Of a DNA stretch of 28,985 nucleotides, positions 11,297 to 26,672 are shown in pieces. Under the pieces are notes generated by a model. That model was not told the DNA's origin. It worked only from the letters and a program-made list of their open reading frames with translations, and did no database searches. The stretch is from a virus. Within the stretch, counting starts at the first letter, position 1, and each line of letters starts with the position of its first letter. The stretch spans positions 1-28,985 of IMG/VR virus record IMGVR_UViG_3300028866_000072. The stretch is one strand, 5' to 3'. The position numbers and the translations under genes are program-made.

Positions 11297-11946
11297 CCTC
11301 GCCCCAAAATTTGGACTATTTGCTGTGCTAGTTTTACCTTCTGAGCGAAGTCGGATTTCTGTGATTGAGTGACGATCTTTGAAAGCCGCTTCTGGAGGGA
11401 TTCGTCTGCGAGGAACTCTTTATCTGTGGGGATGCTGGAGACCTCTTCCGACAGGCGGGACCGGAATAACTCCACGAGTTCAGGAATCAGGAACGGAGCG
11501 AGTTTGGAACTGAGCGGTTCTTTATCCTTCCAATACCGTTCACCGGATCGCCGTTGCAGCATAATCTTTCTGACCATCACGGGGGAGTACAGGAAATGAC
11601 TCCTATCTACTCGGATAGCGGGAGGGAAGAAGTTCTTCTTCACGTAGTCGTCCAACGTCTTCAATTTCATGTTGAGGAGTTCAGCGCACTCAGCGCGGGT
11701 GAGGAGGGCTTTCTCGGAGAGGCCGGCGGGGATGGGAAAGTGTCTTTGGTGGATGATGGCGCCCAGGCGAAGCTGTTCGGCATATTCGGGAGTAGGGTCC
11801 AAGAACCGATCAGCAACCCGCATCTTCCCTTTGATGATGGCGAGGCACCCCTTCTTGGCAAGAGTTTTGACTTGATACGGGGAGAGCCGGAGCTTATCGC
11901 AGATACCAGAGAGGGAGAGCCATTGCTGGGGTTCATGGTTTGACAT
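11278..11946 (-). CDS. Helix-turn-helix DNA-binding protein, two excisionase/MerR-like HTH segments
   Basis: 222 residues on the minus strand; GGAGG lies 7 nt before its ATG. Two helix-turn-helix-like stretches are visible: residues about 10-33 (LSLSGICDKLRLSPYQVKTL) and about 81-105 (LTRAECAELLNMKLKTLDDY). The C-terminal third is a charged helix. It overlaps the end of the gene at 12136 by 14 nt, so the two are co-translated. It is one of only two leftward genes and lies opposite an HTH gene, which suggests a repressor or control role; this is inference from position. Confidence 0.75.
   Translation of the reverse strand: MSNHEPQQWLSLSGICDKLRLSPYQVKTLAKKGCLAIIKGKMRVADRFLDPTPEYAEQLRLGAIIHQRHFPIPAGLSEKALLTRAECAELLNMKLKTLDDYVKKNFFPPAIRVDRSHFLYSPVMVRKIMLQRRSGERYWKDKEPLSSKLAPFLIPELVELFRSRLSEEVSSIPTDKEFLADESLQKRLSKIVTQSQKSDFAQKVKLAQQIVQILGRGKGPLN
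11304..11317 (-). repeat. 14-base dispersed motif AGTCCAAATTTTGG, copy 1
   Basis: An exact copy read on the minus strand, inside the 3' end of the leftward HTH gene. It points the same way as transcription, like the other exact copies. Confidence 0.8.
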
Positions 11947-17024: not shown

Positions 17025-17113
17025 GGCAGGGTGTCCTGCCTAAACCCGTCCGCTCCGCTAGGCTAACGTCAAACGACGCTCTAGCAGCGGGACATTCTTC
17101 TAGGACGGGTTTA
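17025..17113 (+). ncRNA. Two adjoining hairpins, the second long and imperfect
   Basis: GGCAGG-GTGT-CCTGCC forms a 6 bp hairpin at 17025-17040. It abuts TAAACCCGTCC (17041-17051), which pairs perfectly with GGACGGGTTTA (17103-17113). Inside, CCGCT pairs AGCGG (17050-17054/17086-17090, competing for two bases with the outer stem), GCTAG pairs CTAGC (17057-17061/17081-17085) and CGTC-AAAC-GACG caps it. The element ends 21 nt before the tRNA. It may be part of a tRNA precursor, a processing signal or a separate small RNA. There is no T-run after it, so a simple terminator is unlikely. Confidence 0.45.
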
Positions 17114-17134
17114 GACAGCACATTCAAACCAAAA

Positions 17135-17231
17135 GCGGGGATAGCTCAGGGGTAGAGCAGCGGAAAAGTCCGGCATCGAAACCGGATACCTAATCCGCAG
17201 GTGAATGGTTCGAGTCCTTTTCCCCGCTCCA
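17135..17231 (+). tRNA. tRNA-like gene, Gly-like body, aberrant anticodon region
   Basis: Acceptor GCGGGGA (17135-17141) pairs TCCCCGC (17221-17227), followed by discriminator T and an encoded CCA (17229-17231). The D arm GCTC-AGGGGTA-GAGC and T loop TTCGAGT are canonical; the T stem has one T-T mismatch. GCGGA (17160-17164) pairs TCCGC (17194-17198) where an anticodon stem belongs, followed by a 5 nt variable loop, but the loop is 29 nt instead of 7. Within it TCCGG/CCGGA forms an extra hairpin whose loop includes ATCGAAA. Acceptor, discriminator U and D arm resemble bacterial tRNA-Gly. No way of shortening the loop to 7 nt restores U33. The alternative class II folding with anticodon CGA leaves 10 extra bases after the D arm. 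Isotype is undecided. Confidence 0.7.
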
Positions 17232-17512: not shown

Positions 17513-17716
17513 ATGGCACTTACAAAGAAGTCGAAAGTGATCGCAAGTGGAATGTCGCCTAATCTGCAAAAGGCGTTCGATTCCGAGTGGACCGCAACGG
17601 AGCGGTCTGACGATGCAGAAGCTGCTGTGCTTCGGGAGTATCATTATCATCTTCTACGCTGTGAGGAGTTGAAGATATTCCTGAAGAATTGTGGTTTCAG
17701 CGTTGACGGCGATTAA
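17513..17716 (+). CDS. Small hypothetical protein
   Basis: 67 residues (MALTKKSKVIASGMSPNLQK...); GGGAGG lies 5 nt before the ATG at 17513, preferred over the in-frame GTG at 17507 that overlaps the ribosome-binding site. Helical and charged, ends CGFSVDGD. The stop runs directly into a copy of the 14-base motif. Confidence 0.65.
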   Translation: MALTKKSKVIASGMSPNLQKAFDSEWTATERSDDAEAAVLREYHYHLLRCEELKIFLKNCGFSVDGD

Positions 17717-17729
17717 GTCCAAATTTTGG
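17716..17729 (+). repeat. 14-base dispersed motif, copy 2
   Basis: Exact AGTCCAAATTTTGG between the stop of the small gene and the exonuclease gene. Its final GG begins the GGAGGGG ribosome-binding site of the exonuclease, so a protein bound here could affect transcription, and the same bases in RNA lie at the translation start. Confidence 0.8.
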
Positions 17730-17740
17730 AGGGGATGGGG

Positions 17741-19546: not shown

Positions 19547-19661
19547 TCTCTGTAGCCGACACCCCATGTCGGTTAGTCCGGCTCCCCAGTCGGACGCCTC
19601 CTCCCAGGGAGGGTGTTACGGCATCCTCCCTGGCCTCCTCCGACCGTAAACGGAGATGAAC
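19547..19661 (+). promoter_or_regulatory. Structured leader of the first HNH-AP2 gene, Shine-Dalgarno sequestered
   Basis: Three hairpins follow each other: CCGACA/TGTCGG (19556-19572), GTCCG/CGGAC (19576-19595) and CCAGGGAGG/CCTCCCTGG (19604-19633, 9 bp). The first two loops both contain CCCCA. Immediately after, CTCCG (19638-19642) can pair with CGGAG (19651-19655), the ribosome-binding site of the HNH gene, over an 8 nt loop. This would keep the nuclease poorly translated from long transcripts, as is known for phage homing endonucleases. The first hairpins may also end upstream transcription. Confidence 0.6.
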
Positions 19662-20165
19662 ATGAAGGATGATGAGAAGTGTTACGAATTGCCGATAGGG
19701 AGAGGTCTTGTTACCATTGTTGACAGTGGAGACTACGAGAAGTGTTCCAATCTAAAACTTGGTTCCAAGTGGGACAGTAAAAAGAAATGTTTTTACGCTA
19801 CTGCATGGTTTCGAGGAGGTAAGTGCGGACACAAGATTCCGCTTGCGCGTGTAATCCTTGGACTCGATATGTTCGATCTGCGAGAGGTTGACCATATCGA
19901 CAACAAGAACACTCTCGATAATCGACATTCAAATCTTCGTGTAGGGACAACATCTCAGAACCAAGCGAATGCCGTCAGAAGGGTTGATAATACATCTGGA
20001 TTCAAGGGTGTGTATTGGAATAAAAAGAGGAAGCGATGGGTCGCGTTGATAAGGGTGAAAGGAAGACGTTATGGGTTAGGAGGATTTGTTACTCCACAAG
20101 ATGCTCATGTGGCATATTGTAAAGCTGCGGTGAAGCATTTCGGAGAATTTGCGAGGTTTGAATAG
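19662..20165 (+). CDS. HNH homing-type endonuclease with AP2 DNA-binding domain
   Basis: 167 residues from the ATG at 19662 (CGGAG 6 nt upstream); the in-frame ATG at 19656 touches that site. HNH core: ARVILGLDMFDLREVDHIDN (D77-H78) and NRHSNLRVGTTSQNQANAVR, followed by an AP2 domain from about 105 (SGFKGVYWNKKRKRWVALIR ... AHVAYCKAAVKHFGEFARF). Free-standing HNH-AP2 enzymes cut relatives lacking the gene and spread by repair. It sits between an XRE regulator and a replication gene. A second, diverged copy of the same architecture is at 24316. Confidence 0.9.
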   Translation: MKDDEKCYELPIGRGLVTIVDSGDYEKCSNLKLGSKWDSKKKCFYATAWFRGGKCGHKIPLARVILGLDMFDLREVDHIDNKNTLDNRHSNLRVGTTSQNQANAVRRVDNTSGFKGVYWNKKRKRWVALIRVKGRRYGLGGFVTPQDAHVAYCKAAVKHFGEFARFE

Positions 20166-20173
20166 GGGTGAGT

Positions 20174-20812
20174 ATGAAGATAATCATTGACAGTGATTTT
20201 CTCGAAGGTTTGACGTACAGAGGCGTGTTGGCTCTTGTGGCGGTGAACGCGCTCGGCGACGGGTCTTGGACAACCGCACAGTTGAGTCAGGCGGTGTCGT
20301 GCAACTCATCCCTCATGTTGGAAGGCATGGGGGAGTTGCATACGCTATGTCCGGAGTTCATTGGGAAGCAGACGAAAAACAAGTGGCCTCTGGGGACGGG
20401 AGTGGCATCTACGGAGAAAGTCCAAATTTTGGAATCGGATTCGACCTGTAGGCAGGACTTCTTGGATGACGTGAAGAAGGCTTATGAATTCGTCAACAAG
20501 GGATTGCCATTCACGATGGGTTCCGCGGACGGGGCGGCGGTGAAGCGTTGGCTCAAGCAGAACAAGGAAGTGACGCGGGAGGAGTGGAGACGCGCCCTGG
20601 GCAACCGTTACAAGTCAGAGGGTGTGGTGAAGACTCAGGCTTTGTATCTGTGGATTGGGAGGCTTCTGGAGTATCTGGAAGCGCCGCTGGACCGCTATGG
20701 GAAGACGATGCCGAACGGGATTGGAGGGAAGCATGGTGAAGCGCTTGGGCGGGAGCAAGGCAATTACGCTGCAAGGCAATCAGCAGTTGCAGCCGCAGGA
20801 GTTCAATCCTAA
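20174..20812 (+). CDS. Putative replication initiator-like protein
   Basis: 212 residues; AGGGG lies 5 nt before the ATG at 20174 (GTG at 20168 is the alternative). The N-terminus (LTYRGVLALVAVNALGDGSW, TTAQLSQAVSCNSSLMLEGM) looks like a winged helix. The C-terminal half is helical (FTMGSADGAAVKRWLKQNKE). Its position directly before a loader-like protein and DnaB suggests a lambda O-like or DnaD-like role. No diagnostic motif, so this is inference. An exact 14-base motif lies inside it, and its end overlaps the next gene by 80 nt. Confidence 0.6.
   Translation: MKIIIDSDFLEGLTYRGVLALVAVNALGDGSWTTAQLSQAVSCNSSLMLEGMGELHTLCPEFIGKQTKNKWPLGTGVASTEKVQILESDSTCRQDFLDDVKKAYEFVNKGLPFTMGSADGAAVKRWLKQNKEVTREEWRRALGNRYKSEGVVKTQALYLWIGRLLEYLEAPLDRYGKTMPNGIGGKHGEALGREQGNYAARQSAVAAAGVQS
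20419..20432 (+). repeat. 14-base dispersed motif, copy 3
   Basis: Exact AGTCCAAATTTTGG within the coding region of the initiator-like gene, in the direction of transcription. Confidence 0.8.
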
Positions 20813-23479: not shown

Positions 23480-24251
23480 TCCGGCTCAACGTGAACGGGA
23501 AGAGCAGGAGATCAAGGCTCGGAAGGAAGAGGCCACTTTCCACTACAAGCAGATCAAGCAGGCGTCGGTCTTGCAGTCGAGGAACAGCCTTCGGATTGGC
23601 TACCACGCCTTCGCCCTCAAGGAGAAGTCTTTGTGGGGGATGCTGGGCTTCAGGGACGAGCAGGAGGCGCGTGAGGCGGCCGGCGTTAAGGAAAGCACTT
23701 GGCACAACGTCATTCGCTTGGCCGAGTCTTTCAGGGGTTTGCCGGAGGAACTTTTCACCAGTATGAAGCTGGCAAATTGCAGCGAATTGGCGGACCTTCC
23801 AGAAGCGAAGCGGTTGGACAGGGAGTGGGTAGGGTGGGCGGCTGATGAGTCGATGAGAGTGTTCTCTGATCGGGTCGCTAAGGAGATGAACGGCAAGCAG
23901 AGAGATTCGGCCACCAAAGAACCCATCATCACCATGAAAATGTCGATGCCCGAAAGCCGCAGGACAGTGATTGAGGACGGGGCAAAGAAGTTTGCCGAGA
24001 AGCACGGTATGGACACTTCGGATGTGAGTAGGGTAATCGAGGTTATGGTGGTGGAGCAGTCGGAGGGTAAAACCCTCATCGGAGCCATCATAGGGGCCAT
24101 CCAGAGCCTCAAGAGGGCAAAGGATGTAGCTGACTCAGGATTGAGTGTAGAGGAAGCTCTGGAGAAGGTTCTAGAGATCAACGACGCTATCATTTTGGAG
24201 TTCAGTGAGGTTTTGTCTCAGGCAGAACAAAAGAATAGCATAGCGGCGTAA
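23415..24251 (+). CDS. Hypothetical helical phage protein
   Basis: 278 residues; AAGGAG lies 7 nt before the ATG, within the end of dnaB. Mostly helical and charged. Segments include EAREAAGVKESTWHNVIRLA and MKLANCSELADLPEAKRLDR, the kind of phage protein that carries a HTH-like region, and a C-terminus that is coiled-coil-like (KRAKDVADSGLSVEEALEKV). Possibly DNA-binding; no catalytic motif is visible. Confidence 0.75.
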   Translation: MAIAEVLQMPKATKTGQPAEIDPAQREREEQEIKARKEEATFHYKQIKQASVLQSRNSLRIGYHAFALKEKSLWGMLGFRDEQEAREAAGVKESTWHNVIRLAESFRGLPEELFTSMKLANCSELADLPEAKRLDREWVGWAADESMRVFSDRVAKEMNGKQRDSATKEPIITMKMSMPESRRTVIEDGAKKFAEKHGMDTSDVSRVIEVMVVEQSEGKTLIGAIIGAIQSLKRAKDVADSGLSVEEALEKVLEINDAIILEFSEVLSQAEQKNSIAA

Positions 24252-24315
24252 ACGGCTGTAGAATGGAGGTATCGGGCTTGCAGGCCCGTCAATCGCCGCA
24301 AAGGAGGCGGCAACC
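24252..24315 (+). promoter_or_regulatory. Three-way-junction leader of the second HNH-AP2 gene
   Basis: TGGAGGTATC (24264-24273) pairs with GATACCTCCA (24318-24327), which contains the last base of the TTG start codon. The enclosed bases form two hairpins: GGGC-TTGCAG-GCCC (24274-24287) and GCCGC/GCGGC (24295-24311), whose loop AAAGGAG presents the Shine-Dalgarno. The fold places the ribosome-binding site in a loop and buries the start region in a stem, so it is a likely translational switch for the nuclease. Confidence 0.6.
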
Positions 24316-24834
24316 TTGATACCTCCACCTCAAGTAGAATACCGCACAATCTTGTTGACGCAGGAGCAAGTAGCTTACGTCAGCCCTCATCGTTACGAAG
24401 AACTCAATCAATTCAAATGGAGAGCGTTACGAAGGAAGAAGTTGAAGGGTGTATTTTACGCGGTTCGTCACTCTCCGATGATCGGTGGAATACAGGGACC
24501 AATGGTATTCATGCACCGCCAAATCCTCGGCCTTCAGCGTTACGATCCGCGAGAAGGGGACCACAAGGACCATCTGCGTACCCTTGATAACACGGACGAG
24601 AATCTGAGGGTTGCCGACGACACGCAACAGGGACAGAATACCGGACTTCGAGACTCAAGCACCAGCGGCTACAAGGGTGTGAGTTGGCATAAAAGGCGCA
24701 AGGCATGGCAGGCTTACATCAACGTCGATCGAAAGAACAAGCATCTTGGGTATTACAAGACGGCTTATGAGGCTCACTTGGCCTACTGCTATGCGGCAGC
24801 GTATCACTTCGGAGAGTTTGCTTGTTTTGAATAG
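24316..24834 (+). CDS. HNH homing-type endonuclease with AP2 domain, second copy
   Basis: 172 residues with a TTG start at 24316, AAGGAGG 8 nt upstream. HNH core: HRQILGLQRYDPREGDHKDH (D82-H83) and TDENLRVADDTQQGQNTG, then an AP2 domain from about 112 (SGYKGVSWHKRRKAWQAYIN ... AHLAYCYAAAYHFGEFACF). Same layout as the protein at 19662 but clearly diverged, and with a different N-terminus, so the two are probably separate acquisitions. The rare start codon and folded leader suggest low, controlled synthesis. Confidence 0.9.
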   Translation: MIPPPQVEYRTILLTQEQVAYVSPHRYEELNQFKWRALRRKKLKGVFYAVRHSPMIGGIQGPMVFMHRQILGLQRYDPREGDHKDHLRTLDNTDENLRVADDTQQGQNTGLRDSSTSGYKGVSWHKRRKAWQAYINVDRKNKHLGYYKTAYEAHLAYCYAAAYHFGEFACFE

Positions 24835-26618: not shown

Positions 26619-26632
26619 AGTCCAAATTTTGG
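26619..26632 (+). repeat. 14-base dispersed motif, copy 4
   Basis: Exact AGTCCAAATTTTGG just after the terminator and about 40 nt before the -10 box of the tail-fibre gene, so it is placed where a repressor would act. Confidence 0.8.
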
Positions 26633-26672
26633 GGTGGATTTGAAAAACAGGTAGAAGAAAACGTCAAACCTT

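Follow-up and report, generated by a model that had tools for sequence, protein, structure and literature searches.

A three-way-junction element shared by unrelated phage nuclease genes: a probable portable start-site control module and a possible cis-antisense RNA brake

Introduction

What is the role of the folded stretch of DNA that surrounds the start site of a homing nuclease gene in a viral genome, and on which strand does it act? The question is raised by a locus of IMG/VR record IMGVR_UViG_3300028866_000072, of which positions 1 to 28,985 were analysed (28,985 nucleotides, hereafter the window). A first-pass annotation of the sequence had described a leader in front of an HNH nuclease gene as a 10-bp stem holding two hairpins of 4-5 bp, with the Shine-Dalgarno sequence as the loop of one of them and the TTG start codon touching the outer stem. 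Structured leaders of homing endonuclease genes have so far been known gene by gene in T4-like phages. According to the extracts of PMC2988022, RNA structures with an embedded late promoter precede I-TevI, I-TevII, I-TevIII, segB and Aeh1 mobE, and in T4 long transcripts hide the ribosome site while late transcripts are devoid of the 5' part of the fold. As for the element described here, in the open-licence literature, which leaves most subscription journals outside the scope, we found no paper whose title or beginning of abstract describes it.

Results

Fold of the leader

The features of the leader and its gene are as follows.

24264-24273, + strand: 5' arm of the outer stem (sequence, fold and relatives)
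24274-24287, + strand: hairpin 1 (GGGCT-TGCA-GGCCC), 5 bp with a TGCA loop (sequence, fold and relatives)
24295-24311, + strand: hairpin 2 (GCCGC-AAAGGAG-GCGGC), 5 bp with the Shine-Dalgarno in its loop (sequence and fold)
24300-24307, + strand: Shine-Dalgarno AAAGGAGG (sequence; predicted probability of being unpaired 0.96 in the full transcript)
24318-24327, + strand: 3' arm of the outer stem, formed by the final base of the TTG and codons 2-4 (sequence, fold and relatives)
24316-24834, + strand: HNH-AP2 homing endonuclease of 172 aa with a TTG start (phrog_99, AP2 and alignments)
24249-24834, + strand: inserted cassette of leader and HNH-AP2 gene (left edge around 24245-24252, right edge around 24834; absent from L005 and L006)

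Both sequence and predicted fold bear out the architecture of the first-pass annotation. The outer stem (TGGAGGTATC/GATACCTCCA) pairs 24264-24273 with 24318-24327 over 10 bp and encloses the two hairpins, both of 5 bp; AAAGGAG is the loop of hairpin 2, and G24318, the last base of the TTG start at 24316-24318, opens the 3' arm. Perfect 10-bp inverted repeats with a spacing of 3-60 nt occur at only two places in the window, the leader and 17040-17114. The minimum free energy (MFE) of the leader is -32.8 kcal/mol on the + strand (z -2.75; one of 200 shuffled sequences equally good) and -36.2 on the complementary strand (z -3.45). As 31 of the 5782 segments of 79 nt in the record fold as well as the leader or better (12 of 1611 when GC-matched), its fold energy is no proof of function: taken by itself, it is only moderately unusual, and it is not unique in the window.

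Relatives and covariation

We compared 80 HNH-AP2 loci in viral contigs, the best 80 of 562, and the same leader was seen in a subset of them: 15 of these best 80 have it by model match, including one at E 0.064 (L083). A first pattern scan yielded 19 stretches, 17 of which have a leader followed by an open frame; the other two are chance matches without a model match. Model R1, built from seven relatives with the window left out, scores the window at 30.6 bits with filters off (the default filters missed it) and also found further members. With a second model, R2, and a second pattern scan (46 stretches, 17 already known; six of the 29 new loci are chance matches without a model match), 50 matches were obtained at E <= 0.05, corresponding to 34 distinct leaders with an open frame. 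A 30-nt match (L245 4479-4508) was removed before counts of 34, which include a decayed copy (L214) that is excluded from counts of 33.

Members occur in viral contigs and in two acidobacterial assemblies, and one acidobacterial metagenome assembly (L128) has two copies on one contig. The decayed copy, at L144 1927-2002 in Acidobacterium sp. S8, scores 26 bits and precedes a broken HNH-AP2 frame; it is what remains, in an isolate genome, of an insertion into a named host. R2 matched only one of 396 Acidobacteriota genomes and, in the family of Acidobacterium sp. S8, one of 41, the decayed copy of S8 itself, with the filters being strict for sets above 40 genomes. A genome scan with the exact leader core gave no match, and the phage collection gave no DNA match to the region of the window or to the leader of one relative. 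Outer stems of the GGAG type, like that of the window, were found in 15 stretches, one being the twin of the window; none of the other 14 reached E 0.05 with R2. No Rfam 15 family reached its gathering score for the leader, the only match in the window being a tRNA elsewhere; the matches within 24150-24450 are at chance level, and 10 relatives gave none.

The near-identical records L002-L004 and L013 yielded no covariation. In 18 sequences fitted to the model, 92.0% of the cells pair, 13 of 21 pairs show changes on both sides, and the covariation score is 0.324 versus 0.098 for shuffled data; sliding by 1-3 columns leaves 39-50% pairing. Likewise, 37 distinct rows, also fitted to the model and including two - strand matches of known members, one 30-nt chance match and the decayed copy, give 90.8% pairing, 13 of 21 double-changed pairs and a score of 0.312 versus 0.100, with at most 52% pairing in the slid controls. 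Unaided, RNAalifold recovered the same junction from alignment A7, with 17 pairs, 11 of them with compensatory changes; the MAFFT alignments A3 and A4 misplace hairpin 2 and were excluded from the counts. All five pairs of hairpin 2 have both-side changes among relatives, and the outer stem of the window has double changes of its own (GGAGGTATC/GATACCTCC versus the common GGGGTTGTC/GACAACCCC). The first-pass annotation had staked its reading on this comparison, which came out clearly in its favour, with compensatory changes across 34 distinct leaders. The strong support for the fold is comparative, not energetic. It is this covariation that excludes a chance fold, and the three-way junction at the start of the HNH-AP2 gene is confirmed as real. 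In a comparison with riboswitches, no strongly conserved unpaired core besides the Shine-Dalgarno was seen in A7 and the list of members.

The genes behind the element and its joint insertion

The nuclease of the window matches phrog_99, an HNH endonuclease, in PHROGs (5.8e-34), and its AP2 domain match in Pfam is weak (2.6e-6, 28.1 bits for a cut-off of 33.3). With residues H83, N92 and N96 conserved in the alignment, it is by sequence a standard HNH-AP2 protein. Elsewhere, the element precedes genes for HNH-AP2 proteins, for HNH-AP2 proteins with a zinc-finger-like N-terminus, for an HNH_3 domain fused to HNH-AP2 (L211), for endonuclease VII (L215, L230), DUF559 (L244) and PDDEXK_5 (L118), for a phrog_374 HNH protein (L110) and for other phrog HNH proteins (L234, L235). 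Ten proteins were examined, and all except L244 match a nuclease in Pfam or PHROGs. L244 has DUF559, which we take to be a nuclease-like fold, a weak REase_MTES_1575 match and an unnamed phrog. As for L221, Pfam gives only a weak AP2 match; it was placed by alignment to other members and lies outside the PHROGs comparison. The initial description of the element as a leader of HNH-AP2 genes holds for some of them but proved too narrow, as most HNH-AP2 genes are without it and unrelated nuclease families have it. Some contigs carry two or three copies before different nuclease genes (L220 and L245; L209/L215 in G009; L212/L216 in G004:C111). Since the element is common, with matching changes of paired bases, to the starts of unrelated nuclease genes, it looks like a portable control cassette travelling with phage nuclease genes.

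In L005 and L006 the neighbouring genes are present without leader or nuclease. The sequence is continuous there (...GAGGCGGCATGACGAG), the upstream gene joining the downstream ATG directly, and the flanks match the window at 98.2% (7414 bases) and 99.7% (3915 bases) identity. This empty site in a near-identical phage shows that leader and gene entered together, as a free-standing homing endonuclease inserted between host genes. The exchanged patch, 23957-24832, also includes the 3' part of the upstream gene. Its mosaic borders are sharp, with flanks near-identical to L011/L012, and the 3' part of the 278-aa gene was replaced along with the nuclease insertion, as in co-conversion.

Two convergent hexamers

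The junction is flanked by two -10-like hexamers that face each other.

24259-24264, + strand: TAGAAT, -10-like hexamer adjoining the 5' arm (TANNNT in 34 of 34 members)
24336-24341, - strand: TATTCT, -10-like hexamer inside codons 6-9, directed at the stem (TANNNT in 31 of 34 members)
24264-24330, - strand: putative antisense RNA of about 65 nt or longer with the same three-way junction (suggested by folds, mismatches and hexamer)

On the + strand, the TANNNT adjoining the 5' arm, which was demanded by one pattern scan and not by the earlier ones, reads TATAAT in 15 of the 34 members; an mRNA started from it would begin inside the stem. TANAAT lies 45-80 nt upstream in 28 of 34 members versus 2 of 62 HNH-AP2 genes without the leader, and among the 34 members nothing is conserved more than about 5 bases further upstream of the hexamer. 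On the - strand, TANNNT stands at offset 14-19 past the start codon and occurs in all three codon phases; the exceptions have it at offset 11 (L075, L211) or not at all (L235). Counted by 13 N-terminal clusters, it is observed 10.9 times versus 1.0 expected (P ~1e-9), and it is present in six of the 62 HNH-AP2 control genes without leader. Mostly 6-10 bases separate it from the first G of the - strand stem, a distance past a -10 hexamer at which a start of the sigma-70 type is expected, and the antisense start is predicted at around 24327-24330. The two flanks have GnGGTANNNT in common, in inverted orientation. Neither strand has a conserved -35 among the 34 members, in the member sequences the - strand stem is not followed by a terminator-like run of U, and in the main protein cluster the - strand hexamer falls in a conserved Tyr-Arg codon pair.

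Which strand folds

Among the 34 members, the outer-stem mismatches read on the + strand are 15 CA, 13 AC and six others, with no G.U, these being counts of non-independent events (about eleven lineages, judged by eye). In the model alignment, + strand sequences have 28 C.A and four G.U in the outer stem, 11 C.A and 23 U.G in hairpin 1, mostly at one loop-closing pair, and one C.A and no G.U in hairpin 2, which is almost free of wobble pairs on both strands. A C.A mismatch on the + strand is a G.U pair on the - strand, so the outer-stem mismatches are tolerated by the - strand only. The fold energy is lower on the - strand in 27 of 34 members and in 15 of the 18-sequence set (mean z -4.02 versus -3.17 on the + strand). 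The mean pair probability of the outer stem is 0.93 on the - strand and 0.76 on the + strand, and all three helices exceed a pair probability of 0.5 in 27 of 33 members on the former and 22 of 33 on the latter; the outer stem also forms on the + strand in 30 of 33. As codons make up the 3' arm and the 5' arm is G/U-rich, free change of the 5' arm would itself give mostly C.A mismatches. With this bias and the non-independence of the counts, the data favour a selected fold on the - strand rather than on the mRNA, as support and not as proof. The proposal that the fold holds the start signals of the gene thus stands in part: the places of the Shine-Dalgarno in or at hairpin 2 and of the start codon at the outer stem are conserved, but a fold on the mRNA itself is doubtful, as mismatches, energies and the - strand hexamer favour the opposite strand.

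Discussion

The element is very probably a conserved, portable module that controls the start site. The control region would consist of the conserved three-way junction, to which a further small hairpin is often added, covering the Shine-Dalgarno, the start codon and the first codons between the two convergent hexamers. The + strand hexamer would drive an mRNA that starts within the 5' arm and is thus devoid of the outer stem, and the - strand hexamer a short antisense RNA, which would begin at the stem and form the complete junction. It is tempting to speculate that the anti-Shine-Dalgarno loop of the antisense RNA (CUCCUUU) pairs with the Shine-Dalgarno loop of the mRNA and holds back translation, each incoming nuclease thereby bringing its own brake. 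For the antisense step, control by a - strand RNA over the start site, the scales tip slightly to the unfavourable side in our view; taken as a whole, the reading of the element as the region that controls a mobile nuclease cassette, with this mechanism included, is finely balanced. More tentatively, being rather more inclined to doubt than to trust it, we propose that unrelated phage homing nucleases (HNH-AP2, HNH_3, endonuclease VII, DUF559, PDDEXK_5) share a portable cis-antisense RNA brake, in which convergent -35-less promoters flank a three-way-junction RNA covering the ribosome site, with exchange of the nuclease genes that follow. If so, the leader and not the nuclease would be the conserved part of the mobile unit.

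A close rival places the junction fold on the mRNA itself, where it would set translation, with the full fold in read-through transcripts and the 5' arm missing from transcripts of the abutting promoter, as for T4 I-TevI and mobE. The extracts of PMC2988022 offer this precedent, and the fixed places of Shine-Dalgarno and start codon among members, the + strand hexamer adjoining the stem, the U.G pairs of hairpin 1 on the + strand and the + strand outer stem of 30 of 33 members agree with it. The comparison with T4-like promoters finds the -10-like hexamer rightly placed, but a predicted gain in opening of the start codon in only 16 of 34 members, the mean going from 0.44 to 0.41 without the 5' arm. 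Ribosome-site sequestration in the manner of T4 found no support: the Shine-Dalgarno lies in a loop and is predicted open with or without the 5' arm (means 0.66 and 0.58 over 34). With an open Shine-Dalgarno in the complete fold and no overall gain in predicted opening of the start codon once the 5' arm is removed, sequestration is unsupported and an antisense RNA favoured. The mRNA reading, which also leaves the - strand hexamer unexplained and faces outer-stem mismatches of a type that only the - strand tolerates, is in our opinion possible but distinctly doubtful. Given the - strand hexamer, the C.A mismatches of the outer stem and the better - strand folds in 27 of 34 members, we prefer a cis-antisense RNA to a simple mRNA leader, though not with certainty; the missing -35 and U run, the U.G pairs of hairpin 1, the near absence of wobble in hairpin 2, the four G.U of the outer stem on the + strand in the model alignment, the + strand outer stem of 30 of 33 members, the C.A bias expected from free change of the 5' arm and the Tyr-Arg codon pair count against it.

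It is unlikely that the element acts as DNA, the inverted repeat, together with GnGGTANNNT flanks that are themselves inverted, serving as the site of a DNA-binding protein, for instance in nuclease autorepression, or in module exchange between nuclease genes. Autorepression of I-TevI is described in the extracts of PMC2988022, and both the inverted flanks and a hairpin 2 nearly free of wobble pairs on either strand would suit a DNA site. Nevertheless, a sequence-specific site needs no covariation in three helices of changing sequence, the position of the Shine-Dalgarno is tied to hairpin 2, and one operator common to unrelated nucleases is not expected. As for a functionless chance inverted repeat, it would accord with a fold energy that is only moderately extreme by itself, but it is refuted, and made extremely improbable, by the recurrence of the fold, compensatory changes included, in 34 distinct leaders.

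Cis-antisense RNAs such as CopA/CopT, RNAI/RNAII and Sok are short and structured, lie on the opposite strand over a leader and have a loop complementary to the ribosome site. The RNA proposed here would resemble them in being a structured opposite-strand RNA with such a loop; it differs in being predicted, terminator-less and located beside homing nucleases. With the leaders of T4-type phages, as they appear in the extracts of PMC2988022, the element has in common that the start site of a homing nuclease gene lies within a structured leader and that the transcript of a promoter hexamer omits the 5' part of the fold. Unlike in those extracts, it has a three-way junction with an unsequestered Shine-Dalgarno in a loop; the fold is conserved, with covariation, among nuclease families that are unrelated, and the opposite strand bears a second hexamer facing the first. 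In the same extracts, seg43(25) of Aeromonas phage 25 also combines a stable fold with an open ribosome site (PMC2988022), which is located just below the base of a simple stem, whereas in the window it lies in a loop inside a junction that includes the start codon as well.

At least five nuclease families use one and the same covarying element, in several copies in some phages, which suggests a common expression module exchanged among selfish nucleases. The element provides a search model for homing genes that lack annotation and allows a direct test, in a reporter strain, of how invading nucleases are restrained.

Other features of the window

A second HNH-AP2 gene is located at 19656-20165 and has no match to the leader model. 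It is preceded by the strongest fold of the window (19547-19665, MFE -55.8, z -5.2), which consists of three hairpins in tandem and a fourth in which the Shine-Dalgarno is paired, and which differs from the junction at 24264-24327. Over 200 bases around this fold, L011, L012 and L013 show no difference, which leaves no room for covariation. At 17135-17228, Rfam identifies a tRNA (48 bits) unreported by ARAGORN, directly after a 20-nt inverted repeat of 90% identity (17032-17051/17103-17122; region 17032-17228). Finally, the word AGTCCAAATTTTGG occurs four times, at 11302-11317 (- strand), 17716-17736, 20419-20439 and 26619-26639, and is a possible phage operator or promoter motif.
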